Shown: positions 1-14,821 of the stretch, in pieces
Numbering within the stretch: the stretch's first letter is position 1
Layout: every line of letters starts with the position of its first letter
Source of the DNA: a virus
Direction: 5' to 3' (one strand)
IMG/VR virus record: IMGVR_UViG_3300032241_002751
Location: 1-23,107 of that record
DNA: 23,107 bases
Program-made: the position numbers and the translations under genes
The notes under the pieces: generated by a model
The model's input: the letters and a program-made list of their open reading frames with translations, nothing else
The model's database searches: none
What the model was told of the DNA's origin: nothing

Positions 1-210
1 AAACAACATAAGTGTTATGGCGAACTTAGCTATATGCTTTCTTCGCCTCCCAAAAATCTCCAAAATTATGATTGGACAGAGATGCCATCTTGTATGGCTG
101 ACGAATATAAAATTTCAACCGATCCTATTGAAAATTATAGGAATTATTACATTAGAGGAAAGTCACATATTCATAAATGGACTAACCGAGAACAACCAGA
201 TTGGATTTAA
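1..210 (+). CDS. C-terminal part of a conserved phage protein of unknown function (5' end outside window)
   Basis: Reading frame 1 is open from the first base to a TAA at 208-210 and gives 69 residues. The sequence looks like real protein, with a Tyr/Trp/Asn-rich end that includes MADEYKISTDP, ENYRNYYIRGK and a closing WTNREQPDWI. I recall similar tails (a YRNYY motif followed by a K/W-rich close) on conserved hypothetical proteins of T4-like phages, but I cannot name a function. The start lies upstream of the window. The next gene begins 3 bases after this stop, so the two are probably co-transcribed. An overlapping frame starting at 17 gives a less protein-like product and was not used. Confidence 0.7.
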   Translation, partial: KQHKCYGELSYMLSSPPKNLQNYDWTEMPSCMADEYKISTDPIENYRNYYIRGKSHIHKWTNREQPDWI

Positions 211-212
211 AT

Positions 213-593
213 ATGTCAAATATGTATAAGAGTGTAAAAGATTTTCATATCGCATTTAATCAAAGAGTTGGCGAAAAACCAGAATTGCCAGATATGAAAG
301 AGCGCGAGCTTAGAGGTAAGCTTTTAACAGAAGAATTTAAAGAATATATTAACGCGGAACACAACAATGATATTGTTAACATTGCTCAAGAACTTGCAGA
401 TATTATCTATATTGCATGCGGTACAGCCGTATCATATGGAATACCTTTGGATAAAGTCTTTGCTGCTATTCATAAAGCCAATATGAATAAGTTAGTTGAT
501 GGAAAGCCATTAAAGAGAGAAGATGGTAAGGTCATCAAGCCAGAAGGTTGGAAGCCAGCCGACATTAAAAAGATCATCAAAATTAAACCATAA
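213..593 (+). CDS. MazG / PRA-PH-like nucleoside triphosphate pyrophosphohydrolase
   Basis: This 126-residue all-alpha protein fits the phosphoribosyl-ATP pyrophosphohydrolase/MazG fold. That fold hydrolyses (d)NTPs to monophosphate and pyrophosphate using Mg2+ held by acidic residues on two helices. The metal-binding pattern is visible as LLTEEFKEY (EExxE) followed by ELADIIYIACGTA (ExxD). The tail, with HKANMNKLVDGKPLKREDGKV, is typical of the phage and bacterial MazG-like clade in which the product loop follows an NMxK motif. I chose ATG 213, just after the upstream stop; ATG 225 is possible, and no strong ribosome binding site decides between them. It could adjust the dNTP pool, for example by removing a canonical or damaged nucleotide before the base-modification module that follows. 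That role is inference from position. Confidence 0.85.
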   Translation: MSNMYKSVKDFHIAFNQRVGEKPELPDMKERELRGKLLTEEFKEYINAEHNNDIVNIAQELADIIYIACGTAVSYGIPLDKVFAAIHKANMNKLVDGKPLKREDGKVIKPEGWKPADIKKIIKIKP

Positions 594-633: not shown

Positions 634-1992
634 ATGGTAAAGGTTATTGTTGCTAAAAATAAAATTGATTGTGAACATTTGCTTGGCACGTTTGTTGATG
701 CTTCGAGTTATGATATTCTAATTGAAGAAGATACTGATTGTTATATGCCAGCAACTTGCGACGTTGCGCAAAAGGCTAATTGTGGCGGCGATTGTGAAAA
801 CTGTTCTAAGGGAACAGATGAACGTCGTATTGCTTTCAAGTTCAGGAAGAATTATTTTTCTAAAAAAGAACAGGATATGGCATATGCTGGCTTGCGCGAA
901 GCTGCAACCGAAAGTCAAAATCGTGGTATTGCTGCTGGTCCTCGTGGCGAAATGCTTGGCGCAGAAGGTCGTGGTGGTAGGGATTGGGTAACTTCATATC
1001 AATTAGAAGTGCTTGATTATCTTCTAAACAAGAGCGCACGAATTATTGACGACGTTTCAGTTGAAAGTATTCGTGAAAAATATAAAAACGGCGATCCTAA
1101 GAATAATGATGAAACTCGTGGCCAAGTTTGGCTACGATCAGAAGTTTGTAAAATTTATCCAGAATATCATGGATGGTTTGATAAGTGGGTCGATGGTTTA
1201 AGTAATAAGCCAAACGATGTTGTTGTACAAGAAGCAACTAAGGTTGCAGAAAAATGGATTTCAACAACCAACTATGCTAAAACAGTTTGGTCTGGAGTTG
1301 CCGGATGGTATGATCGTTACCCGAGAATCCCATATGGCCGAGCAACATCATATACTGAAAAGAATCCAGAAAAGTTTGCTATGGCTTATCCCTTCCTTCA
1401 AACCCTTAACAAGGGATTCAAGGAATTACTTCCATGGAGATGGGGCAATCAAAAGGAAGCAGCAGATAAGCTTGATCCTCGGTTCTTAGTTCCTGATACT
1501 GTATTTACAACAATTACAGTTAATAAGTCATTTAGAACTGCATGTCATCGTGATGCCGGTGACTTAAATGATGGTCTTTCAAATCTGCTAGTTCTTGGCG
1601 ATGGCGAATATACTGGCGGTTATCTTGTATTTCCAGAATACAGGGTTGCTGTTAATGTTCGGCCTGGAGATTTGTTACTTGTTAATAATCACGAGATTAT
1701 TCATGGTAACACAGAAATTAAGTTGAATCATGAAAAGGCTGAACGTATTTCACTTGTTTGTTATTTCCGAGAAAAGATGCTAGAACTTAAGAATTGGGAA
1801 TATGAAAATCTACGTAGGCAGTATGTAGATGAACGGCGACGTAATAAAGACCATAAATTATGGCGACCTTTGTGGAATGGTATTAGTCCGGGTATGTGGG
1901 ACGAACAAGAATGGTTTGACTATATGGCAAAGCATAATATGCCAGATCCATATGCAAAGGCTCCTGTTGCAAGTCTAGATGCATTTTTCTAA
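634..1992 (+). CDS. TET/JBP-family 2-oxoglutarate/Fe(II) dioxygenase (DNA pyrimidine hydroxylase)
   Basis: This 452-residue protein resembles phage TET/JBP dioxygenases, which hydroxylate the 5-methyl group of thymine or 5-methylcytosine in DNA. The double-stranded beta-helix core lies at about residues 285-385. It has the iron ligands H305-x-D307 in FRTACHRDAGD, a distal His in NNHEIIHGNTE (H353 or H358), GGYLVFPEYRVAVNVRPGD between them, and R371 in ERISLVCYF as the likely 2-oxoglutarate anchor. The N-terminal part has a Cys cluster (C36, C42, C50, C54, C57) that could bind zinc, followed by the clade-typical NRGIAAGPRGE segment. The start has a strong ribosome binding site (TTAAGGAG). Its stop overlaps the next start (TAATG). 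No C5-cytosine methyltransferase is in this window, so the substrate could be thymine or 5-methylcytosine. Family assignment is firm; substrate is not. Confidence 0.88.
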   Translation: MVKVIVAKNKIDCEHLLGTFVDASSYDILIEEDTDCYMPATCDVAQKANCGGDCENCSKGTDERRIAFKFRKNYFSKKEQDMAYAGLREAATESQNRGIAAGPRGEMLGAEGRGGRDWVTSYQLEVLDYLLNKSARIIDDVSVESIREKYKNGDPKNNDETRGQVWLRSEVCKIYPEYHGWFDKWVDGLSNKPNDVVVQEATKVAEKWISTTNYAKTVWSGVAGWYDRYPRIPYGRATSYTEKNPEKFAMAYPFLQTLNKGFKELLPWRWGNQKEAADKLDPRFLVPDTVFTTITVNKSFRTACHRDAGDLNDGLSNLLVLGDGEYTGGYLVFPEYRVAVNVRPGDLLLVNNHEIIHGNTEIKLNHEKAERISLVCYFREKMLELKNWEYENLRRQYVDERRRNKDHKLWRPLWNGISPGMWDEQEWFDYMAKHNMPDPYAKAPVASLDAFF

Positions 1993-2672
1993 TGTGTGGT
2001 GTTCTTGGTATTATTATCAAGGATTTTAACGAAAAAGATCATGATTTAATTCGTGGTCTTTTTATTCAATCCATGATTCGAGGGAAACATGCTACTGGCG
2101 TTTCCTATATAAAAAATAATAAAGTAAACACAATAAAGGAGTCAATACCATCTGATAAATTTATTGACAAACAAAATTTAAATACATGGAAAAACGAAGA
2201 TGGAAATCTTTATTGTATTGGTCATATTCGTTACAGTACTTCAGACCTACGTTATAATCAGCCTTTTGCAACCGATAAGATAGGTATTGTCCATAACGGT
2301 GTCATATCTCAAGAACCTTCTAATACATGGTTTGAAACTTTCGGTTATAAAACAGAAACAGAAAACGATTCTGAATTAATTCTTCATATGATAGAAGATA
2401 ATAAGAACCCCTTACAATACCATAACACAAGTATGGCTGTATGCGCCTTGTTTAAAGATAAACGTTTATTGGCATTTCGAAATCATGAAAGACCTCTTTA
2501 CTATTATCAGGATACAAAAACAGTAATTTTTGCATCAACAAAAGATATTTTAAAGCGCACAGGATTTAAAACAGCAACTAAAACAGAAATGTATAAAATT
2601 TATAATGTAAATAATTTTGAACTGACTATCACACGTTCAGAACCAAAAGTTAATATTGAGGACTTGCAATGA
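1992..2672 (+). CDS. Stand-alone class II glutamine amidotransferase (Ntn glutaminase domain)
   Basis: This 226-residue protein consists only of a GlmS/PurF-type glutaminase domain, which releases ammonia from glutamine using an N-terminal cysteine. Met1 is followed directly by Cys2 (MCGVLGI). Further family motifs are RGKHATGVS (30-38), GHIRYSTS (77-84, with R80), HNGVI (101-105) and ENDSELI (124-130, with D126). There is no synthase or isomerase domain attached, so the ammonia acceptor must be handled by a separate protein. The amidoligase encoded next, overlapping by 4 bases, is the obvious partner. The start overlaps the dioxygenase stop (TAATG), which indicates translational coupling. 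In this neighbourhood it plausibly supplies nitrogen for an amino- or amide-containing DNA base modification, but modification of a protein or cell-wall peptide is also possible. Confidence 0.85.
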   Translation: MCGVLGIIIKDFNEKDHDLIRGLFIQSMIRGKHATGVSYIKNNKVNTIKESIPSDKFIDKQNLNTWKNEDGNLYCIGHIRYSTSDLRYNQPFATDKIGIVHNGVISQEPSNTWFETFGYKTETENDSELILHMIEDNKNPLQYHNTSMAVCALFKDKRLLAFRNHERPLYYYQDTKTVIFASTKDILKRTGFKTATKTEMYKIYNVNNFELTITRSEPKVNIEDLQ

Positions 2673-3544
2673 AATACAATATTAAAGATTTCACATGGGG
2701 TTATGAAATTGAATGGGGAGATATTCCTAGGAATGAAAATATCCCAGAACATCTTGGTAAATGGGAATATGCAGAAACGGATATTGTAAATCTTATTAAA
2801 CCATACCGTGGTCTTGCTTGCGATCCTCTTGGTATTGATCCTCCAGTTGGAGGAGAAATTAATACTAAACCAACTAAAACTTGGGAAGAGCAAGTAGATC
2901 GTATAATGGAAATTAAAAAGTTATTTAAACATCCTACTGCTTCATGCGTTAATCATGGCCATCTTCATGTATATGTTCCTGGGTTAAAGGACGATATCGA
3001 ATCTTTAAAAAAGATTATCAAATACATTAAAGAAAATCAACATCAAACTATTGATGCTTGTTATCAATACCGAGTCCACCCAGATATGTCTCTTTCGAAA
3101 ACGGCTAAGACTTATTTGAAATGGGATGGCGGACGACCTATGCCTGATTATATGTGTGATAATATTGTCAATAAAGCTAATAACTTTGACGATTTTATTC
3201 GATTACATGCAGCAGGTAAAGATGGCGTGTCTATGGGCCGACCTTTTCGACATGCAATAAACACATATTGTATGAAGCATACTGGAACTATTGAATTTCG
3301 TTGTTTTAGATCCTCAACAGATTCTAGAGAAATATTTGATTCTTTTAGATTCGTCGCTGAATTTATGAAAGCTGCACTAAACGATGGTCCTCCAGTTAAT
3401 GAAATTTTAAGAAAGGGACAGTTTGTGTTTCCTACATTTACATATGACAGTGAAATGTATATTGCATGGGAAAAAACAAAGTATGATAAATCAAGGGGAA
3501 ATAAAAAAAGAGAATACCATGATGTTAAAGAAAACATCACGTGA
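2669..3544 (+). CDS. GCS-like amidoligase (Amidoligase_2 family, COOH-NH2 ligase)
   Basis: This 291-residue protein matches the pattern of amidoligases related to gamma-glutamylcysteine synthetase, which join a carboxylate to an amine using ATP. Visible motifs are GYEIEWGD near residue 11 (paired Glu at 13 and 15), GGEINTKPT (61-69), HGHLHVYVPG (96-105) and GTIEFRCFRSS (206-216). These are the expected metal and nucleotide-binding strands in the expected order. The gene starts in an ATGA overlap with the glutamine amidotransferase stop, so the two are likely made together and may act as an ammonia-using pair. The 3' end overlaps the acetyltransferase start by 26 bases. Its substrate cannot be read from sequence. 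A contribution to an amino-acid-like DNA base adduct is inferred from the flanking dioxygenase, kinase and pyrophosphorylase-like genes. Confidence 0.8.
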   Translation: MKYNIKDFTWGYEIEWGDIPRNENIPEHLGKWEYAETDIVNLIKPYRGLACDPLGIDPPVGGEINTKPTKTWEEQVDRIMEIKKLFKHPTASCVNHGHLHVYVPGLKDDIESLKKIIKYIKENQHQTIDACYQYRVHPDMSLSKTAKTYLKWDGGRPMPDYMCDNIVNKANNFDDFIRLHAAGKDGVSMGRPFRHAINTYCMKHTGTIEFRCFRSSTDSREIFDSFRFVAEFMKAALNDGPPVNEILRKGQFVFPTFTYDSEMYIAWEKTKYDKSRGNKKREYHDVKENIT

Positions 3545-4055
3545 AGAATTTAAAAAATTTCTTACTACATTAAAATCGGATAATTTTTCGAAAACATTTA
3601 TCGCTAAATGTGATATGATGGATGCTTGGGATAAATGTATAGGTTATTGGATCGGCGACGAGTTAGCAGGTGCTATTGTTGTAACAATTTCAAAAAAATC
3701 ACCTACAGTTGCCAATCTTCAATTATTGCATACATTTTCTAAATTTAGAGGCAAGGGCGTAGGTAAGTTACTTTGTAACTGGGCGTTGTCATATGCTCTT
3801 GAACAAGGTGCAAAATATTTTCGTGTATCTGCCGAATTTGATGCAGTTGAATTTTATGAAAAATGCGGTTTTAAATTTGTTGGTAGACAAAAAACTGCTA
3901 AACTTTCAATGTTTTGTTTGACAGATAAAATCGTTTCTAACAATAGTTTTGAACCTGATGAATTTATCTGGAAAGCAATAAATAAAAAAGGTAAAGGATC
4001 GTGTGTTGAATGTTATGTTGAATATCAAGGCGTCTACAAATATACAACAAACTAG
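3519..4055 (+). CDS. GNAT-family N-acetyltransferase
   Basis: This 178-residue protein carries the acetyl-CoA binding motif of GNAT enzymes, RGKGVGK (77-83, the R-x-x-G-x-G/A loop), preceded by a beta strand (NLQLLHTFSKF). It also has the family's late FYEKCGFKFVG signature (112-122). GNAT enzymes move an acyl group from CoA to an amine. I placed the start at ATG 3519 (or 3522), inside the end of the amidoligase gene; the frame is open further upstream, but that part reads as out-of-frame amidoligase sequence. The stop is TAG at 4053-4055, so TAG works as an ordinary terminator in this genome. The next gene starts 52 bases before this stop. In context it could acetylate the amine added to a modified base; a protein substrate is equally possible. 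Confidence 0.8.
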   Translation: MMLKKTSREEFKKFLTTLKSDNFSKTFIAKCDMMDAWDKCIGYWIGDELAGAIVVTISKKSPTVANLQLLHTFSKFRGKGVGKLLCNWALSYALEQGAKYFRVSAEFDAVEFYEKCGFKFVGRQKTAKLSMFCLTDKIVSNNSFEPDEFIWKAINKKGKGSCVECYVEYQGVYKYTTN

Positions 4056-5022
4056 AAAAAAAGATTTTATAAATTGGTATAAATGGTCGTTGTCTATTAA
4101 AGATTGCGATCCTTCTATTTTTATGACTAACTATTTGTTTGATAGATTTGAACATAATAAGGAACAAAAATTATGGATTTCTTGGATTTATGGAACAACA
4201 TATTATTTTCCAACAACATGGATTATTTGGAACGAATTTCCAGATATGGAACTTGTTGGCCTTGAACGATTAAGAGAATGGAACAACAATAATTACAAAA
4301 GGCTCCGCTATCAAACTGATACTAAATGGAATAAAGGTCATCTTCCGGCCCAGTTTGAATCATATAAAAATTGGGTAGGAAATAAAACTCAACGAGAAGC
4401 ATTTAGTCCTTTCCTTGTCAATACGCCAAGAGAAAATTTTGAAAATCTCTGGTCGGAAATAAAAACAAAATTCCACAAATTTGGTCGCTATTCGACTTGG
4501 TTTTATATGCAAACGTTGAAACAGTGTTGCGATATGCCAATTGACCCATCACATTTAATGTTGAGTGATTACGAAGGTAGTCGTTCTCATCGCAATGGTC
4601 TTTGCATGGCGCTTGGCCTAGATGATTGGTATGATAAAAAACTTAATAAACAAGAGATAAATTATCTAGATGGTCAAGCTTATTATATATTGCAAGAAGT
4701 AAAACAAGATTTTCCTAATACAGATTATTTTGATATGGAAACGTGTCTATGTAGTTTCAAAAAACTTTTTCGTATTAAAAAAGGAAGATACTTAGGATAC
4801 TATCTTGATAGACAAGCAGAAGAAATTAAACAATGTGAAAATGATGGATGGTATGGTATAGATTGGCAACCACTTTGGGATGCAAGGGCGGAAATTTTGG
4901 ATAAAAAGTTGTTGACTAATAATATAAATAATAGTAAAATGGAGTTATATACCAAGTATAACATTTTAGATTGCACTGGCCTTTTTGAACAAAAAAATAA
5001 TTTAGAATATTTTATGGAGTAA
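4003..5022 (+). CDS. Alpha-glutamyl/putrescinyl-thymine pyrophosphorylase-like protein (DNA-glycosylase-related fold)
   Basis: I recognise this 339-residue protein as resembling the phage aGPT-pyrophosphorylase clade. These glycosylase-derived enzymes are thought to replace the pyrophosphate on 5-hydroxymethyl-dU in DNA with an amine such as glutamate or putrescine. Characteristic stretches are GRYSTWFYMQTL (161-172), SRSHRNGLCMALG (193-205), ETCLCSFKKLF (246-256) and RYLGYYLDR (262-270). The start is uncertain. GTG 4003 is 4 bases after an AAAGGA ribosome binding site, TTG 4006 is 7 bases after it, and ATG 4015 is 16 bases away; residue numbers here use 4003. The gene overlaps the GNAT gene and is followed 2 bases later by the kinase, its expected pathway partner. 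The family call rests on remembered motif layout, not on a search. Confidence 0.78.
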   Translation: MLNVMLNIKASTNIQQTRKKDFINWYKWSLSIKDCDPSIFMTNYLFDRFEHNKEQKLWISWIYGTTYYFPTTWIIWNEFPDMELVGLERLREWNNNNYKRLRYQTDTKWNKGHLPAQFESYKNWVGNKTQREAFSPFLVNTPRENFENLWSEIKTKFHKFGRYSTWFYMQTLKQCCDMPIDPSHLMLSDYEGSRSHRNGLCMALGLDDWYDKKLNKQEINYLDGQAYYILQEVKQDFPNTDYFDMETCLCSFKKLFRIKKGRYLGYYLDRQAEEIKQCENDGWYGIDWQPLWDARAEILDKKLLTNNINNSKMELYTKYNILDCTGLFEQKNNLEYFME

Positions 5023-5024
5023 TT

Positions 5025-5558
5025 ATGAAAATTATTGCAATCGGTGGTGAGCCAGGCGCAGGTAAAACTTCGCTGATGAAAAAAATTATAGAAAAATATA
5101 AAATGCTTCCTGCATACGAAGCTTTTAAATTAGTACCATATCTCAATAAAAACAATTATTACGTTCTTGGTAAATATGAGCAAAATGAAGTTTTTGCTGG
5201 CACTGATCGTATGAGCATGGCAGTGCAGCCAGAAGCCAAAAAGTTTCTTTCTAGTTTACCAGAAAATTCTATTGTTCTATTTGAAGGCGATAGATTATTC
5301 AATTCTTCTTTTTTAGAAATGTGTGTCGAATTATATGATACTAAAATTATCTATCTGAAAACATCAAAGAACGTAAGACAAGAAAGGTATGAAGAAAGAA
5401 AAAGCAATCAAAACGAAACTTGGTTGCAAGGTAGAGAAACTAAAATATCAAATATATTGTCTAATATTCAATTGATGTTTAATATTGAGAGTTATGAAAA
5501 TAATAATTTAGAACAACAATCTAAATTAGTGGATATTATATCCGGTTATATGGAGTAA
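5025..5558 (+). CDS. P-loop kinase, probable hydroxymethyl-pyrimidine DNA kinase type
   Basis: This 177-residue P-loop NTPase begins MKIIAIGGEPGAGKTS, with a Walker A motif at about residues 7-16. Downstream are GTDRMSMAVQPEAKKFL (about 63-79) and IVLFEGDRLFNSSFL (about 87-101). The EGDR in the second Walker-B-like strand and the conserved GTDR loop resemble the phage base-modification kinases that phosphorylate 5-hydroxymethyluracil in DNA before pyrophosphorylase-type transfer. A ribosome binding site (GGAG) lies 6 bases before ATG 5025. The neighbouring aGPT-pyrophosphorylase-like and TET/JBP genes support this reading. A small-molecule or nucleoside kinase is the main alternative, because the P-loop alone does not set the substrate. 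Confidence 0.75.
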   Translation: MKIIAIGGEPGAGKTSLMKKIIEKYKMLPAYEAFKLVPYLNKNNYYVLGKYEQNEVFAGTDRMSMAVQPEAKKFLSSLPENSIVLFEGDRLFNSSFLEMCVELYDTKIIYLKTSKNVRQERYEERKSNQNETWLQGRETKISNILSNIQLMFNIESYENNNLEQQSKLVDIISGYME

Positions 5559-5561
5559 AAA

Positions 5562-5918
5562 ATGAAAACTTGCACTTGTGGTAAAAAAAATTGTGGGTGT
5601 TCTAGTGTAGATTTAATGCCGCTAGAGTTAGAAACAACATCAATTGTTAATTATAAATATGAAGAAGGAAAAATTATTTCCGACTTCAAAAAATATGTTG
5701 ACAAAACTTATTCCGAACATTATAATAGTTCAGATAATGTCCAAGCTTTTGATGCTTGGATTGCATTAGGAGATGCCACTCCTACTTTTCGTAATACGGC
5801 ATTAAAATATTTGTGGCGTTATGGAAAAAAGAATGGCAATAATAAAGATGATTTAATGAAAACTCTACACTATATTCTACTATGTTTATATAACGATCAT
5901 TATAAGAAAGGTGATTAA
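5562..5918 (+). CDS. Small DUF3310-like phage protein
   Basis: This 118-residue protein has a Cys-rich start, CTCGKKNCGCS, which could bind a metal. It ends with a helical region containing FRNTALKYLWRYGKKNG and DDLMKTLHYILLCL. The closing pattern (alkYxxRxGkK, then DLxKxxxYl) resembles DUF3310/SaV-like proteins, small helical phage proteins often found near nucleotide-metabolism genes and sometimes annotated as nucleotide kinase-like. That function is not established. It starts 3 bases after the kinase stop with GGAG upstream and is followed 3 bases later by the glycosyltransferase, so it belongs to the same transcription unit. Its role in the module is unknown. Confidence 0.65.
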   Translation: MKTCTCGKKNCGCSSVDLMPLELETTSIVNYKYEEGKIISDFKKYVDKTYSEHYNSSDNVQAFDAWIALGDATPTFRNTALKYLWRYGKKNGNNKDDLMKTLHYILLCLYNDHYKKGD

Positions 5919-5921
5919 AAT

Positions 5922-6779
5922 ATGGAAATTAATATCCCAATTGAAGAACTCCGAAAGAGGAAATTATTTATTGCAACACCAATGTATGGTGGGCAATGCG
6001 CAGGAATGTTTGCACGTTCAATTGCAGACTTGAGTGCACTTTGCACACAATACGGAATTCCCTTACAGTTTTATTTTCTGTTTAACGAATCTCTAATTAC
6101 ACGTGCAAGAAATTATTGTTGCGATGAATTCATGCGTTCAGATGCGGAACATCTAATGTTTATTGACTCTGATATTGGTTTCAATCCACAGGATGTAATT
6201 GCTCTTATGGCATTACAGGCACAAGACCCAGAAAAGTATGATATTATCGGCGGTCCATATCCAAAGAAGTGTATTTCTTGGGAAAAGATTAAGCATGCTG
6301 TTGATAAGGGTGTTGCTGACGAAGATCCGAATGTTCTAGATAAGTTCGTTGGAGATTATGTATTTAATCCAAAGGGCGGTCAAGGTTCTATTGCAATTGG
6401 TGAACCATGTGAAGTTCTTGAAATTGGAACTGGTTTCATGATGGTTTCTAAGCAAGCTATGAAGAAGTTTGCTGATTCTTATCAGCAATATCTATATCGT
6501 CCAGATCATATTCGTACAGAACACTTTGATGGTTCAAGAAAGATTATGATGTATTTTCAGGCAGAAGTTGATCCTAAGTCTGAACGTTATCTTTCAGAAG
6601 ATTATTGGTTCTGTCAGAAGGCGCAGGAAATTGGTCTACGTACATGGTTCTGTCCATGGATGAAGATGCAACATGTAGGCACTTATATCTTTGGTGGGTC
6701 GTTGGCAGACTTAGCTTCTATTGGAGTTAGTGCTACTGCTGATCCATCTAAGCTTGGTGGTAAACCTAAGAAGAAGTAA
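5922..6779 (+). CDS. GT-A fold glycosyltransferase, probable DNA base modification
   Basis: This 285-residue protein looks like a soluble GT-A glycosyltransferase, which moves a sugar from a nucleotide-sugar donor. The N-terminal strand KLFIATPMYGGQC (14-26) leads to NESLITRARNYCCDEF (55-70) and then HLMFIDSDIGF (77-87), with DSD at 82-84 as the metal-binding DxD motif. A later LSEDYWFCQKAQEIG supplies a likely catalytic acid, and MQHVGTYIFGG a probable metal-ligand His. There is no signal peptide or membrane segment, which fits a DNA target in the cytoplasm better than cell-envelope work. The gene prefers AAG for Lys, like the dioxygenase and gp45, whereas the genes between use mostly AAA. 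Glycosyltransferases of this kind recur beside TET/JBP genes in phages, supporting a sugar on hydroxymethylated DNA. Confidence 0.8.
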   Translation: MEINIPIEELRKRKLFIATPMYGGQCAGMFARSIADLSALCTQYGIPLQFYFLFNESLITRARNYCCDEFMRSDAEHLMFIDSDIGFNPQDVIALMALQAQDPEKYDIIGGPYPKKCISWEKIKHAVDKGVADEDPNVLDKFVGDYVFNPKGGQGSIAIGEPCEVLEIGTGFMMVSKQAMKKFADSYQQYLYRPDHIRTEHFDGSRKIMMYFQAEVDPKSERYLSEDYWFCQKAQEIGLRTWFCPWMKMQHVGTYIFGGSLADLASIGVSATADPSKLGGKPKKK

Positions 6780-10485: not shown

Positions 10486-10517
10486 TGTACGCTGCCTAAT
10501 GGAGCGTACAATTTTTT
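10486..10517 (+). terminator. Hairpin with T run between the small gene and hsp20
   Basis: Arms TGTACGCT (10486-10493) and AGCGTACA (10503-10510) are perfectly complementary around a 9-base loop and are followed by A and six T. It reads as a Rho-independent terminator for transcripts coming from the gene at 10240. Because the proposed hsp20 promoter lies just before it, most of the hairpin could instead sit at the 5' end of the hsp20 message. Confidence 0.6.
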
Positions 10518-10543
10518 ATAACTCGCTTAATAAGGAGAAAAAT

Positions 10544-11035
10544 ATGAACGATATTTTTTCATTCAACACAACCAATTTCGATAAGTTTTTCGTTGGTTCT
10601 GATCGTTTAATTAACGCACTTGCTAAAGCACATAGCGAATTTACTAAAGCTATTCCTGCATATCCCCCATATAATATTGTTAAGGTCGACGAAAACAAGT
10701 ACGCCATTGAAATGGCAGTTGCTGGTTTTGGTAAGAACAATATTGAATTGGAACTTTCCAATAACGTTCTTACAATTAAGGGCGGTATGACTGTTGAAAA
10801 TATGGCAGAAGAAAGCACAAACCCAGTAGCCTATATTTACAAGGGTATTGCCGATCGTTCTTTCACACGTAAGTTCACTCTTGCTGATGCTGTTGAAGTT
10901 AAGGATGCACAATTGATTAATGGTATGCTTAAGATTTGGCTAGAACATATTATTCCTGATGACAAAAAGTCAAAGAAGATTGATATTAATGATGGGCACT
11001 CCGAAACTACAACTGTATCAAAGAGGATTAAGTAA
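10544..11035 (+). CDS. Small heat shock protein Hsp20 (alpha-crystallin domain)
   Basis: This 163-residue protein belongs to the IbpA-like class of ATP-independent chaperones that hold unfolding proteins. The N-terminal arm is followed by the alpha-crystallin domain: YPPYNIVKVDENKYAIEMAVAGFGKNNIELELSNNVLTIKGG, then the central IADRSFTRKFTLADAVEV (the R-x-F-x-R-x-F-x-L-x core strand) and NGMLKIWLEHIIP. The start at ATG 10544 is set by AAGGAG 8 bases upstream; an in-frame TTG at 10499 lies inside the hairpin and is rejected. Hsp20 genes are common in T4-like marine phages and may protect virion assembly. It leads a three-gene unit ending at the 11249 terminator. Confidence 0.93.
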   Translation: MNDIFSFNTTNFDKFFVGSDRLINALAKAHSEFTKAIPAYPPYNIVKVDENKYAIEMAVAGFGKNNIELELSNNVLTIKGGMTVENMAEESTNPVAYIYKGIADRSFTRKFTLADAVEVKDAQLINGMLKIWLEHIIPDDKKSKKIDINDGHSETTTVSKRIK

Positions 11036-11291: not shown

Positions 11292-11888
11292 ATGATAACT
11301 TTACAACAACTAAAAGATTTATTCCCTTACACTAATGAAAATACACTTTCGCAATATATTGAAGGCATCAATAAAACTATTGATGATTATCTAATTAATA
11401 ACCCTGCTATGTTTTTAGCACAAATTGGTGTAGAATCTAATGGGTTGAGGGTAATGGAAGAAAATTTAAATTATTCTGCTTCAAGATTAAGAGTTGTTTT
11501 TCCTAGATATTTTCATAACAGAGATGCTAATGATTATGATAGAAACCCAGAAAAGATTGCTAATTTAATTTACAGTAATCGTATGGGTAATGGTTCTGAA
11601 GAATCGGGCGATGGATATAAATTTCGTGGCCGAGGAGCATTACAAATTACCGGTAAATATAATTATGAAAAATTCGCTCAATCGGTCAATATGAGCGTCG
11701 ATGATGTAATTGATTATATTACTACACCCGAAGGGGCTGTTATGTCTGCTGGTTGGTTTTGGAAAGCTAACAATATTAATAGAATTTCAAACGATATTGT
11801 TCTGACTAGCCGTAGAATTAATGGTGGCGATAATGGATTGCGTGCCAGAATTGGTATGTATGAAAGGGCTAGAAAAATAATCTATTGA
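11292..11888 (+). CDS. Endolysin, GH19 chitinase/lysozyme-like
   Basis: This 198-residue protein has the single-domain layout of phage GH19-type endolysins, which cut the glycan strands of peptidoglycan. Motifs are FLAQIGVESNGLRVMEENLNYSA (41-63, with E48 as likely general acid and a second acid at E56/E57), GYKFRGRGALQITGKYNY (108-125) and AGWFWKANNIN, ending with SRRINGG. No signal peptide or transmembrane anchor is seen, so release to the periplasm would need a holin, which is not identified here. AAGGAG lies 7 bases before the ATG. The spanin genes about 1.3 kb upstream on the other strand supply the outer-membrane step. Confidence 0.88.
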   Translation: MITLQQLKDLFPYTNENTLSQYIEGINKTIDDYLINNPAMFLAQIGVESNGLRVMEENLNYSASRLRVVFPRYFHNRDANDYDRNPEKIANLIYSNRMGNGSEESGDGYKFRGRGALQITGKYNYEKFAQSVNMSVDDVIDYITTPEGAVMSAGWFWKANNINRISNDIVLTSRRINGGDNGLRARIGMYERARKIIY

Positions 11889-11919: not shown

Positions 11920-11967
11920 TAGCGGTTTGTGGGCCGAAAAGGCCGAACGCGCAGAAAGGATTTCATC

Positions 11968-13422
11968 ATGTTCTATACAAACGTATTCATCCGCGGAGAT
12001 TTCATTTATCTCCGCGGATTCGATAAGGGTCTTCGAATCAAGGAAAAGATAAATTATAAACCATATGTTTTTATTCCAAGTAATAAAGGAAATTATAAAA
12101 CATTACAAAACAAGTCTGTTGATAAACTTGTATTTGATAGCATTAAAGATGCAAAGGGGTTTATTGAAAAGTACAGCGAAGTTTCCAATTTTGAATTTTA
12201 TGGATTAACAGGGCCAAACTTCAAGTATCTTTATATTTTCGATAATTTTAAAGGTGATATTGATTATGATCCTCAACTAGTCAAGGTAGGCACATTAGAT
12301 ATTGAGTGTGCTGCTGACGAAGGGTTTCCTAGTATTGAAAGAGCAGATAAGCCTCTGACTGCTATTACTATTCGTAGCAGAGGTAGAAATTATGTATTCG
12401 GTTGTGGAGATTTTAAGTCCAATGATCCCAATACATATTATCTAAAGTGTAAAGATGAACATGATCTAGTTCAGAAGTTTATTGATGCATGGGAAAAGCT
12501 AGACCTTGATATTGTCACAGGTTGGAACATTGAGTTTTTCGATATTCCTTATCTTGTCAATCGCATCAAGCTTCTGTTCGGCGAAGCTCATGCCAAGCGA
12601 CTATCACCATATAAAATACTCGATTCTAAAATGATAGAGTTTCGTGGTAAGGAAAATCAAAGCTATTCTCTGGCAGGGATAGCAGTGATGGATTATTATC
12701 AACTTTATCGTAAGTTTACTTTCGGTAATCAGGAAAGTTATAAGCTAGATTATATTGCTCAGGTTGAACTGGGCGAGAACAAGATTGACTATTCTGAGTA
12801 TGGTAATCTATTAGAACTGTATAAGAAAAACTTTCAGAAGTTTATTGAGTATAACATTCATGACTGTGTTCTGGTTGATAGACTTGATGATAAGATGAAG
12901 TTTATTGAACAGGTCATGGCCATTGCATATGATGCCAAGGTTAATTATGAAGATACTATGACCACAGTTAAACCTTGGGATATTATCATTCATAATTATT
13001 TGCTTGAAAGGAATATTGTTATTCCGCAGTTTGAACCTTCTCATGAAGATTTCGAACTGGTTGGCGGTCATGTTAAGGAAGTTAATCCAGGGTTATATAA
13101 GTGGGTTGTAAGTTTCGATCTTAACAGTCTATATCCTCATCTTATTATGCAATATAATATTAGCCCAGAAACGTTTGTTAATAGGATTGAATTTCCATCA
13201 ATTGACTATTTGCTTAATGGTACATGGGAATATCGTGATGGTTCAGTAGCATATGCTGCCAATGGATGCACATATAGAAAAGACAAGCAGGGCTTTCTTC
13301 CTGCTCTGATGGAAAAGATGTATAATGATCGTGTTGTCTATAAGCAGAAAATGATTGAAGCTAAGAAAGAACTTGAAGAAATTGAAAAAGAAATGAAAAT
13401 TCGTGGATTATTGGCTAATTAA
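11968..13422 (+). CDS. 43: DNA polymerase gp43, N-terminal part (exonuclease domain and motif A)
   Basis: This 484-residue piece holds the N-terminal, 3'-5' exonuclease and first palm portions of a T4-like family B polymerase. The start at ATG 11968 (MFYTNVF) has GAAAGGA upstream; an in-frame ATG at 11929 lies in the leader. Exo I is LDIECAADE (D111, E113; T4 has D112, E114). Exo II is VTGWNIEFFD, Exo III YNIHDCVLVD, and motif A SFDLNSLYPHL with D384. The frame ends at TAA 13420-13422, a few codons after the lysine/glutamate-rich helix KELEEIEKEMKIRG. Motifs B and C are encoded downstream, beyond an insertion. As in some Aeromonas T4-like phages, the polymerase might function as two chains, but the second part has its own defect. 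Confidence 0.93.
   Translation: MFYTNVFIRGDFIYLRGFDKGLRIKEKINYKPYVFIPSNKGNYKTLQNKSVDKLVFDSIKDAKGFIEKYSEVSNFEFYGLTGPNFKYLYIFDNFKGDIDYDPQLVKVGTLDIECAADEGFPSIERADKPLTAITIRSRGRNYVFGCGDFKSNDPNTYYLKCKDEHDLVQKFIDAWEKLDLDIVTGWNIEFFDIPYLVNRIKLLFGEAHAKRLSPYKILDSKMIEFRGKENQSYSLAGIAVMDYYQLYRKFTFGNQESYKLDYIAQVELGENKIDYSEYGNLLELYKKNFQKFIEYNIHDCVLVDRLDDKMKFIEQVMAIAYDAKVNYEDTMTTVKPWDIIIHNYLLERNIVIPQFEPSHEDFELVGGHVKEVNPGLYKWVVSFDLNSLYPHLIMQYNISPETFVNRIEFPSIDYLLNGTWEYRDGSVAYAANGCTYRKDKQGFLPALMEKMYNDRVVYKQKMIEAKKELEEIEKEMKIRGLLAN
11989..12019 (+). repeat. Perfect 12-base stem within the first codons of gp43
   Basis: ATCCGCGGAGAT (11989-12000) and ATCTCCGCGGAT (12008-12019) are perfect complements around a 7-base loop (TTCATTT). 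The stem starts 21 bases after the A of the ATG and is very GC-rich for this genome. In mRNA it would be a strong hairpin just inside the ribosome footprint, suited to translational control. No T run follows. Confidence 0.8.
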
Positions 13423-13439
13423 AATAACAATTACCAATA
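13409..13439 (+). repeat. Hairpin at the gp43/insertion junction
   Basis: TATTGG-C-TAATT (13409-13420) pairs with AATTA-CCAATA (13429-13439): 11 base pairs with a single bulged C and an 8-base loop. The gp43 stop codon TAA (13420-13422) lies at the loop edge. It marks the boundary where polymerase-like sequence gives way to endonuclease-like sequence. Confidence 0.55.
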
Positions 13440-13745
13440 GCTCAACAAAATATTCAAATAGCTATCACTAAAAATAGAGGAAGAAAACGACCAAAACATT
13501 CTGAATTTATGTCAAAATATTTTTCCGAATTTTGGAAAAATAATAAAGAAAAAATGCGAGATGCATTATCAACAACTTTTCAAGCAATTTCACCAACAGG
13601 AGAAATTTATCTAACAAATAGATTACAAGAATTTTGCGAAAATAAAAATTTAAGTTATAGTACTTTATGGACTACAAGTAAAACTGGTATTACACCCAAA
13701 AAAGGGAGAAGTAAAGGATGGTTATGTCGAAACTTAGCGCCTTGA
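13428..13745 (+). pseudogene. Homing endonuclease remnant (C-terminal DNA-binding part only)
   Basis: The frame is open from 13428 (after TAA at 13425) to 13745. It encodes NRGRKRPKHSEFMSKYF, a NUMOD3-like motif of GIY-YIG/HNH homing endonucleases. A stretch SPTGEIYLTNRLQEFCENKN followed by LSYSTLWTT and ending SKGWLCR matches their NUMOD1-like helix-turn-helix tail. No nuclease domain (GIY-YIG or HNH) precedes it, only about 15 codons without a start, so the element is truncated; the internal ATG 13509 would give a 78-residue fragment. It sits inside gp43 between motif A and motif B and overlaps the resumed polymerase frame by 22 bases. Intron-less insertion of a free-standing endonuclease, now decayed, is the simplest reading. 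Confidence 0.72.
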
Positions 13746-14821
13746 GAAAGGAGGAGCTTATTGCGCGCCGTGAGCAGTTGATTAAGGATGTTGCTCGCTA
13801 TCAAAATCTTCAGATGGCGAAAAAAATCCAACTCAATTCTGCTTATGGCGCTCTTTAGCTTGGTAATAGATACTTCCGTTGGTTCTCATTCAATAATGCG
13901 GAGGCTATTACAACTTCAGGTCAGCTTTCTATTCGTTGGATCGAAAGAAAGATGAACAAGTTTATGAATAAAATTTGTAAAACTAAAGATGTAGATTATG
14001 TAATTGCATCAGATACAGATTCTATCTATGTTACTTTTGCTAATCTGATACCTGATAACTCAGATGAACTAGAAGCTGTTAAGTTAATTGATAACTTCTG
14101 TGAAAAATATATTCAATCATATATTGATAAATGTTATGATGAACTTGCGGGTATGATGAATGCATATCAGCAGAAGATGAAGATGAAGCGCGAAACTATC
14201 GCAAATAAGGGCATCTGGAAAGCTAAGAAGATGTATATTCTAAATGCCTGGAATATCGAAGGTGTACAGTTTGATAAACCTAAGTTAAAGATTCAAGGGA
14301 TTGAAGCAGTTAGAAGTTCAACTCCACATGCTTGCAGAGAAAACATCAAGAACTCTCTGTCTATCATGATGAACGAAAACCAAGAAACTCTGATTCAGTT
14401 CATTGAAAAATTCAAGAACGAATTTATTAATCTCTCGTTTGAAAATATTGCATTTCCAAGAGGAGTAAAGGGTATTGGGAAATATAAAGATTCTGCATTA
14501 ATTTATAAAAAGGGAACTCCTATTCATGTTAAAGGAGCGTTATTGTTTAATAACATGATTAAAAAGTTAAACATAAAAAGTATCCCACCAATTTCTGATG
14601 GCGATAAAATTAAATTCGCATATTTAAAGATACCAAATCCCATACAGGATACTGTTATTTCAACGCCAGATGAATTGCCAAATGAACTAGGACTAGATAA
14701 ATATATTGACAGAGACAAGCAATTTGATAAATCATTTCTTGAACCAATTAAATCTATTGCTAATATTATTGGTTGGGAAGTTGAACACAAATCAACTTTG
14801 GAAAGTTTTTTCGATGGTTAA
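13724..14821 (+). CDS. 43: DNA polymerase gp43, C-terminal part (motifs B and C), with in-frame TAG at 13856
   Basis: Frame 2 resumes polymerase sequence from ATG 13724, which has AAAGGA 5 bases upstream. MSKLSALRKEELIARREQL leads to the motif B region MAKKIQLNSAYGAL. A TAG (13856-13858) follows, then CTT and GNRYFRWFSFNNAEAITTSG, normally contiguous with SAYGAL. Motif C is IASDTDSIYV (DTD at 14012-14020). The thumb follows, ending KSTLESFFDG, which resembles the clamp-binding tail of gp43. Without the TAG the two parts total about 850 residues (T4 gp43: 898). The next start after the TAG, ATG 13952, would lose part of the palm. Either the stop is read through or bypassed, or this is a broken gene or sequence artefact. 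Confidence 0.8.
13853..13861 (+). other. CTT-TAG-CTT site inside polymerase motif B (possible ribosome hop)
   Basis: A stop codon is bracketed by two identical Leu codons, exactly between the Leu of SAYGAL and the Gly of GNRYF. Removing six bases (TAGCTT or CTTTAG) restores the family's unbroken motif. Matched take-off and landing codons around a stop are the arrangement needed for a peptidyl-tRNA hop. Whether it happens is unknown. Confidence 0.45.

Follow-up and report, generated by a model that had tools for sequence, protein, structure and literature searches.

A candidate post-replicative thymine-hypermodification cassette with a variable gene slot after a TET/JBP dioxygenase in a T4-like phage record

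A gene run upstream of a T4-like clamp gene

The 23,107-nucleotide stretch analysed here (positions 1 to 23,107 of IMG/VR virus record IMGVR_UViG_3300032241_002751; hereafter the window) is a 23.1-kb virus record carrying a T4-like replication block, made up of the gp45 clamp, the gp44/gp62 clamp loader, RegA, a family B polymerase, UvsX and a DnaB-type helicase. Directly upstream of the clamp gene stands a run of eight genes (634-6779) that opens with a TET/JBP dioxygenase. Judging from the genes alone, we lean, with somewhat better than even confidence, towards reading this run as the cassette with which a T4-like phage hypermodifies thymine after replication. An earlier note on this DNA had described eight contiguous or overlapping plus-strand genes, and the open reading frames (ORFs) were confirmed at all of its coordinates, with neighbours overlapping or standing a few bases apart. 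The association lies far beyond chance, because IMG/VR scans confirmed 213 relatives for the dioxygenase (TET) and 389 for the amino acid:DNA transferase (ADDT) of the run, with conserved gene order. No close phage record was found for the window, the nearest DNA-level phage match being one 278-bp stretch at 72%.

In the proposed pathway the phage would make ordinary deoxythymidine monophosphate (dTMP), as ThyX in relatives suggests, and would replicate normal DNA first. The TET would then hydroxylate chosen thymines within the DNA to 5-hydroxymethyluracil, the kinase would phosphorylate the hydroxyl of this base, and the ADDT would displace that phosphate with an amino-acid-type nucleophile. 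The glutaminase would supply ammonia to the amidoligase, which would form an amide on a carboxylate of the side chain or of a free precursor, and the GNAT protein would acylate an amine. The product would be a bulky thymine derivative carrying an amide, which should protect the DNA from restriction. All of these reactions are inferences, and the same holds for the target base, for which nucleophile is used, for whether the amide or the acyl step comes first, and for the protection. More tentative, and in our estimate a little short of evenly balanced, is the broader proposal that a JBP-like thymine dioxygenase acts as a fixed first step, followed by a swappable slot whose genes would place glycosyl, inositol-, methylase- or amide-linked decorations on 5-hydroxymethyluracil made in situ; the decorators would be swapped while the oxidase is kept, and the product in the window would be an undescribed amidated, acylated amino-acid thymine.

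Origin of the hydroxymethyl group

Beyond the module, we looked for the two enzymes that could provide the modified base by another route, a deoxyuridine monophosphate (dUMP) hydroxymethylase and a C5-cytosine methyltransferase, as the earlier note had suggested. Neither the thymidylate-synthase-type (TS) fold of the hydroxymethylase (PF00303) nor the methyltransferase family (PF00145) was found in the window, which is a fragment, or in any of 26 related IMG/VR contigs of 33-162 kb, some of them near-duplicates. As positive controls, PF00145 was detected in Melnitz and PF00303 in Cr30, Cygsa01, SFP10 and Bue1. Oxidation in situ gains support because neither enzyme was found in the relatives. 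ThyX was present in 7 of 13 IMG/VR relatives checked, including all four larger than 130 kb, and ordinary dTMP is therefore expected to be made there. With no PF00303 in the window or in 26/26 relatives and ThyX in the four largest, the earlier suggestion of a hydroxymethyl group formed on bases already in DNA, and not at the nucleotide level, is probably right. TET and PF00303 also tend to replace each other: the three TET-less phages with an ADDT (Cygsa01, SFP10 and Bue1) all carry PF00303, and it is missing from all eight phages in which TET was matched at E<=0.001 (five of these matches lie below the Pfam cut-off, and not all eight phages have an ADDT).

Melnitz-type TETs, which occur in 71 IMG/VR loci (L183-L253), provide the contrast. 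They adjoin a C5-methyltransferase in all 57 loci that extend more than 1500 nt upstream of the TET; a single tblastn query with the Melnitz methyltransferase at 1e-5 found it in none of 162 loci around window-type TET or ADDT genes, 87 of which are IMG/VR loci reaching equally far upstream of the TET. Melnitz-type clusters are likely the cytosine counterpart. In a tree of 35 chosen rows, window-type and Melnitz-type TETs fell into two distinct clades, each with support and divided by long branches. Taken together, the failure to find rival hydroxymethyl sources in the contigs searched, the presence of ThyX, the contrast with Melnitz and the TET clades favour thymine as the target base. In Melnitz-3 (L181:1451-5531) a C5-methyltransferase, a TET, an unknown protein of 427 residues and a related kinase stand in a row; the 427-residue protein, considered as a possible ADDT, showed no detectable similarity to one.

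Variation of the genes that follow the dioxygenase

The best 80 relatives from each scan were kept. Of 162 loci fetched, 125 had a TET match, and 92 of them together with the window gave 93 spans, defined as a near-full TET followed by the glycosyltransferase that closes the run. Merging spans whose TETs were at least 95% identical and whose gene order was the same left 53 dereplicated spans. The 33 TET loci outside the spans were mostly cut by contig ends; they also include Cr30, C48C1, S-CBWM1, L073, L079 and L085, in which gene order or content differs. Nineteen of the 53 spans derive from the ADDT scan and thus contain an ADDT by selection. Genes were detected by tblastn at 1e-6, which undercounts divergent GNAT and amidoligase genes (the GNAT of L110, for example, was missed).

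The slot after the TET was found to hold several gene sets. Glutaminase, window-type ADDT and kinase occupy it in 29/53 spans, and a TET-associated glycosyltransferase (TAGT, PF20691), not found in the window cassette, occupies it without a kinase in 10/53. An ADDT with an inositol-phosphate synthase and a kinase is present in 4/53. Rarer are an N6/N4-methylase-like gene with ADDT and kinase (3/53) and other ADDT-like cassettes with kinase (3/53); two spans have a 448-aa unknown protein, one has the kinase alone and one, DLP6, has no queried gene. The ADDT-like type of L028 has no Pfam match and was called solely by similarity to the window ADDT. The kinase and an ADDT-like gene occur together in 39 of 40 spans and the kinase with TAGT in none of 10 (Fisher 1.5e-8, uncorrected for kinship); for loci from the TET scan alone the figures are 19/20 and 0/10 (p 1e-6). 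Such pairing and avoidance are as expected if glycosylation and phosphorylation with substitution share one hydroxymethyl intermediate.

The type of ADDT also follows its neighbours, window-type ADDT being accompanied by glutaminase in 29/29 spans and other ADDT types in 0/10; the transferase therefore changes with the supply genes, and this co-variation makes it somewhat more likely that the cassette determines the nucleophile. In the best TET tree, in which many forks are open, the cassette label requires 15 changes, with a minimum possible of 5 and a mean of 22.6 for shuffled labels; if only branches with good support are counted, the glutaminase label must still change at least 7 times. 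Cassettes differ even between sister TETs, as in L029/L032 and L012/L016. Because cassettes vary repeatedly after the TET, the oxidase appears fixed and the decorator exchanged, as expected if the TET product is a common intermediate.

Some individual loci deserve mention. In sister cassettes and in Caulobacter phage Cr30, inositol-1-phosphate synthase genes lie close to the ADDT (L029:3401-4531, L004:13293-14474); an inositol-derived base decoration is one possible reading. In a 152-kb relative, TET and a divergent ADDT flank an N6/N4 DNA methylase-like gene (L043:11371-12033). The 431-aa product of L034:13485-14780, encoded between GNAT and ADDT, is weakly ParB-like along one stretch; it has relatives in 15/53 spans and echoes the ParB-like gene of actinophage clusters discussed below.

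Family assignments within the run

The family calls of the earlier note held in six cases by Pfam matches over the cut-off (TET/JBP, glutaminase, GNAT, ADDT, Ploopntkinase3 and DUF3310). The amidoligase falls 1.1 bits short of its cut-off, and the last gene has no Pfam match over the cut-off, its identification as a glycosyltransferase coming from a structure model.

The first gene (634..1992, plus strand, as are all that follow) encodes a TET/JBP 2-oxoglutarate- and Fe(II)-dependent dioxygenase with a Tet_JBP match at 2.3e-26 (PF12851, 92 bits against a cut-off of 34.9) and a conserved N-terminal extension of ~210 residues. H305, D307, H357 and R371 are invariant across 26 aligned sequences, and the HxD motif and second His (the iron ligands of this double-stranded beta-helix family) and the Arg that binds 2-oxoglutarate in the family are retained in 35/35 aligned TETs. 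A search of PDB sequences with the TET profile matched human TET2 at 2e-4. The enzyme is predicted to act on a pyrimidine in DNA, adding a hydroxyl to its 5-methyl group.

The class II (N-terminal nucleophile) glutamine amidotransferase or glutaminase (1992..2672) matches GATase_6 at 3.1e-11, and its Cys2 is present in 35/35 dereplicated sequences including that of the window. The putative amidoligase (2669..3544), a carboxylate-amine ligase of glutamine-synthetase-like fold, matches Amidoligase_2 at 3.7e-4 (20.9 bits, cut-off 22), a profile that matches 7 of 26 members, the window's included, at E<=0.01. Its AlphaFold model is confident (predicted local distance difference test score, pLDDT, 92). 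The best PDB structure matches, to glutathione synthetases, glutamine synthetases, YbdK, PafA and Dop, are weak (best E 1.5e-3), with none at E<=0.001; by these weak matches the modelled fold would be that expected of carboxylate-amine ligases, resembling glutamine synthetase. PDB sequence searches with the amidoligase, ADDT and glycosyltransferase profiles gave nothing informative. The GNAT acetyltransferase (3519..4055, Acetyltransf_10 at 3e-13) was listed as an ORF from 3423, a start within the amidoligase gene; translation more likely begins at 3519, where there is an ATG in frame. The enzyme would acylate an amine.

Glutaminase genes stand between TET and ADDT in 29/53 spans, and no span has glutaminase without ADDT; amidoligase was detected in 27 and GNAT in 23 of these 29. 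A glutaminase and a ligase of glutamine-synthetase fold beside an ADDT suggest amidation of a carboxylate on an attached or to-be-attached amino acid. In Vibrio phage 2.275.O (L275, 3890-8150), a 7-deazaguanine cluster holds a homologue of the window amidoligase (hhalign 99.5%) together with a protein weakly resembling GATase_6, which by sequence would form a second link of this pair to base modification.

The ADDT (aGPT-PPlase family, 4003..5022) matches PF18724 at 1.2e-23 (84.5 bits, cut-off 26.2) and phrog_3271 at 4.9e-60, matches that speak to family membership only. Its start at 4003 is uncertain, as the alignment begins at residue 1 for some relatives but only at about residues 12-20 for others. 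The nearest ADDTs among well-sampled cultured phages are those of Ackermannviridae, about 30% identical. The protein is predicted to replace a base-linked phosphate with a nucleophile. The P-loop kinase Ploopntkinase3 (5025..5558), a predicted 5-hydroxymethylpyrimidine-DNA kinase, matches PF18751 at 2.3e-10 (40.8 bits, cut-off 27), again to be taken as family membership only. Its Walker-A residues G8, G13 and K14 are invariant in 18 sequences, and its profile found general P-loop matches only among PDB sequences. These Pfam matches exclude the possibility, raised in the earlier note, that the proteins at 4003-5022 and 5025-5558 belong to unrelated families.

The DUF3310 protein (5562..5918, PF11753 at 1.5e-5) is present in 46/53 spans and is not specific to any one cassette. 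The last gene (5922..6779) encodes a glycosyltransferase-like protein matching phrog_1574 at 1.6e-58, with a DxD motif (D82, D84) invariant in 18 sequences. Its structure model is of medium quality (pLDDT 74). At E<=0.001 the model matches 74 PDB entries, the best 50 being mostly glycosyltransferases; by our own reading of these structural matches the product appears to be of GT-A type. As a module member this gene has a mixed record. It follows TET with every cassette type and was found in 69 of 71 loci with at least 7 kb after TET, but Sinorhizobium and Synechococcus ACG-2014f phages outside the list of the TET search carry it too, which weakens the claim. Its presence in the spans is no evidence, because these end at the glycosyltransferase by definition.

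Alternative explanations

Several observations weigh against a thymine route that starts with the TET. ThyX was missing from 6 of the 13 relatives checked, the related contigs are possibly incomplete and in part near-duplicates of one another, and there is a chance of 5-methylcytosine (5mC) made by the host. Cr30 has a TET together with a strong PF00303 match (373 bits), as well as a TAGT match below the Pfam cut-off alongside ADDT and kinase; because it combines both, neither the exclusion of TET and TS fold nor that of TAGT and kinase is strict. The Melnitz cluster joins a related kinase to a C5-methyltransferase, so the kinase family is not confined to thymine. The pocket residue after the iron-binding HxD, which we take to correspond to N1387 of TET2 and to contact the base there, is D in 15/15 window-type and 9/9 Melnitz-type TETs and N in 5/5 actinophage rows; since the first two groups are both D, it does not discriminate between thymine and cytosine TETs. 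Lastly, PaP3 has GATase_6 and Amidoligase_2 neighbours with no TET or ADDT annotated nearby, so the glutaminase-amidoligase pair can serve other chemistry.

Some of these points would fit a cytosine route, which we regard as unlikely: a host or undetected phage methyltransferase would make 5mC, the TET would convert it to 5-hydroxymethylcytosine, and kinase, ADDT and amide genes would build on cytosine. In its favour, a C5-methyltransferase adjoins TET and a related kinase in the Melnitz-type clade. The same PF00145 search that detects the Melnitz enzyme finds none in the window or its 26 relatives, however; the window-type TETs stand in a clade apart, and the nearest well-sampled cultured-phage ADDTs belong to Ackermannviridae, the group that presumably includes the thymidine-modifying phage ViI. 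The cytosine route also draws on two papers: phages with C5-methyltransferase, TET and glycosyltransferases are reported to make glycosylated cytosine (PMC12730594, citing Burke 2021), and a TAGT of T6-like phages is thought to put a second glucose on glucosylated hydroxymethylcytosine (PMC13390438). It is very improbable that a nucleotide-level enzyme supplies the hydroxymethyl group as in ViI, with the TET oxidising later. The TS fold in three TET-less ADDT phages, and in Cr30 beside a TET, would agree with this; the lack of PF00303 in 26 relatives and the window, and ThyX in seven of the relatives checked, argue against it.

The amide genes allow two further readings. In a variant of the thymine route that we treat as a serious possibility, if not the favoured one, glutaminase, amidoligase and GNAT would first build a free amine, such as a small amidated or peptide-like metabolite, that the ADDT attaches whole. 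That the ADDT type follows the cassette (29/29 against 0/10) agrees with this, as do the inositol-phosphate synthase of the alternative cassette, which by family acts on a free sugar phosphate, and the amidoligases and glutaminase of PaP3 with no TET or ADDT annotated nearby; on the other side, the pathway of phage S-B43 is a precedent for forming an amide bond on a DNA base (PMC12783734). We think it improbable that these genes are passengers acting on a protein or metabolite unrelated to DNA. PaP3, with such a module and no annotated kinase-ADDT pair, would suit that reading, but it is opposed by the glutaminase standing between TET and ADDT in 29/53 spans and never without ADDT, and by the homologous pair in the deazaguanine cluster of 2.275.O.

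Should the preferred reading, modification of thymine after replication, be true, it would describe a phage route that, like base J synthesis, oxidises thymine in finished DNA, before rebuilding it with an amide; on the broader proposal of a swappable slot, phages would alter their DNA surface by swapping decorators while retaining the oxidase. Decorator cassettes fed by nearly identical TETs would form a natural series, whose exchange could dissect the reactions and could yield DNA-labelling enzymes. The system also allows a test of whether thymine is the substrate of those phage TETs that come without a methyltransferase.

Other features of the window

Upstream of the run lies a gene for a MazG/PRA-PH-like pyrophosphohydrolase (201..593, plus strand, PRA-PH at 1.3e-19), whose membership of the module is uncertain; such a gene adjoins TET in many relatives. 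An HSP20 small heat-shock gene (10499-11035) and a GH19 endolysin-like gene (11292-11888) are located between the RegA and polymerase genes. The family B polymerase gene (11929-14821) is interrupted, its N-terminal part running to 13422 and its C-terminal part starting near 13750 in a different frame, and an in-frame TAG falls inside the polymerase motif NSAYGAL..GN near 13835-13870. This site is uninterrupted at 48 sites in other loci, of which only L157 and L159 are from window-type loci. The interruption may reflect a split gene, a mobile element or an assembly error. An Rfam scan of the window gave no RNA family over the cut-off.

Comparison with known systems

Hypermodification starting from TET/JBP products was reportedly predicted by Iyer et al. 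in 2013, and cytosine hypermodification by a phage C5-methyltransferase, TET and glycosyltransferase system is said to have been described by Burke in 2021. As is proposed for the window, the TET of the latter system makes a hydroxymethyl base in DNA, and sister cassettes of the window carry PF20691; unlike in that system, no C5-methyltransferase was found in the window lineage.

The earlier note took the combination of TET, kinase and pyrophosphorylase to be undescribed, which does not stand, as clusters of these three genes are in print for Gordonia phage CaiB (PMC9302106) and for Rhodococcus phage Tonitrus, where the cluster was named a possible thymidine hypermodification system (PMC11955845). 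In our Pfam scan of CaiB, ADDT and Ploopntkinase3 were over the cut-off and Tet_JBP below it. Like the window, the five-gene actinophage cluster has TET/JBP, ADDT (aGPT-Pplase2) and Ploopntkinase3 in one gene run, and no TS fold was found in it. In the window, however, three other genes stand between TET and ADDT, whereas no glutaminase, amidoligase or GNAT is annotated in the actinophage stretches examined (hypothetical genes there were partly scanned). The actinophage clusters begin with a ParB-like gene, and the window has no match to the ParB-like protein of its relatives. Actinophage TETs also lie in clades distant from the window TET in the tree of 35 rows.

In the ViI-type pathway, 5-hydroxymethyldeoxyuridine is made before incorporation, and a DNA kinase and then transferases follow (PMC6449724). 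The window shares this kinase-plus-transferase logic of ViI, M6 and phiW-14; three related phages have a TS-fold gene, whereas the window lineage has a TET and that fold was not found. A survey of jumbo phages likewise drew the distinction between nucleotide-level and in-situ modification from the absence of TET/JBP (PMC7824862). The carboxymethylcytosine pathway of S-B43 (CmoX, CmoY) resembles the proposed chemistry in placing an amide on a base side chain, and its type of ligase includes a reported subfamily with a glutaminase domain (PMC12783734); it uses carboxymethyl-S-adenosylmethionine and adenosine monophosphate-forming ligases, whereas the window has TET, kinase and a ligase of glutamine-synthetase fold. 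PaP3 shares the neighbouring GATase_6 and Amidoligase_2 genes, but its amidoligase is weakly alike (hhalign 42%) and no TET, ADDT or Ploopntkinase3 is annotated in the stretch examined.

Among the papers listed in our searches of the open-access literature, judged mostly by titles and abstract openings, we did not find the glutaminase-amidoligase-GNAT extension, the swapping slot in a T4-like lineage, or the pattern of ThyX and TET with no hydroxymethylase. The core triad was already known from the actinophages; the amide-making extension and the exchangeable slot after TET are what is new here.

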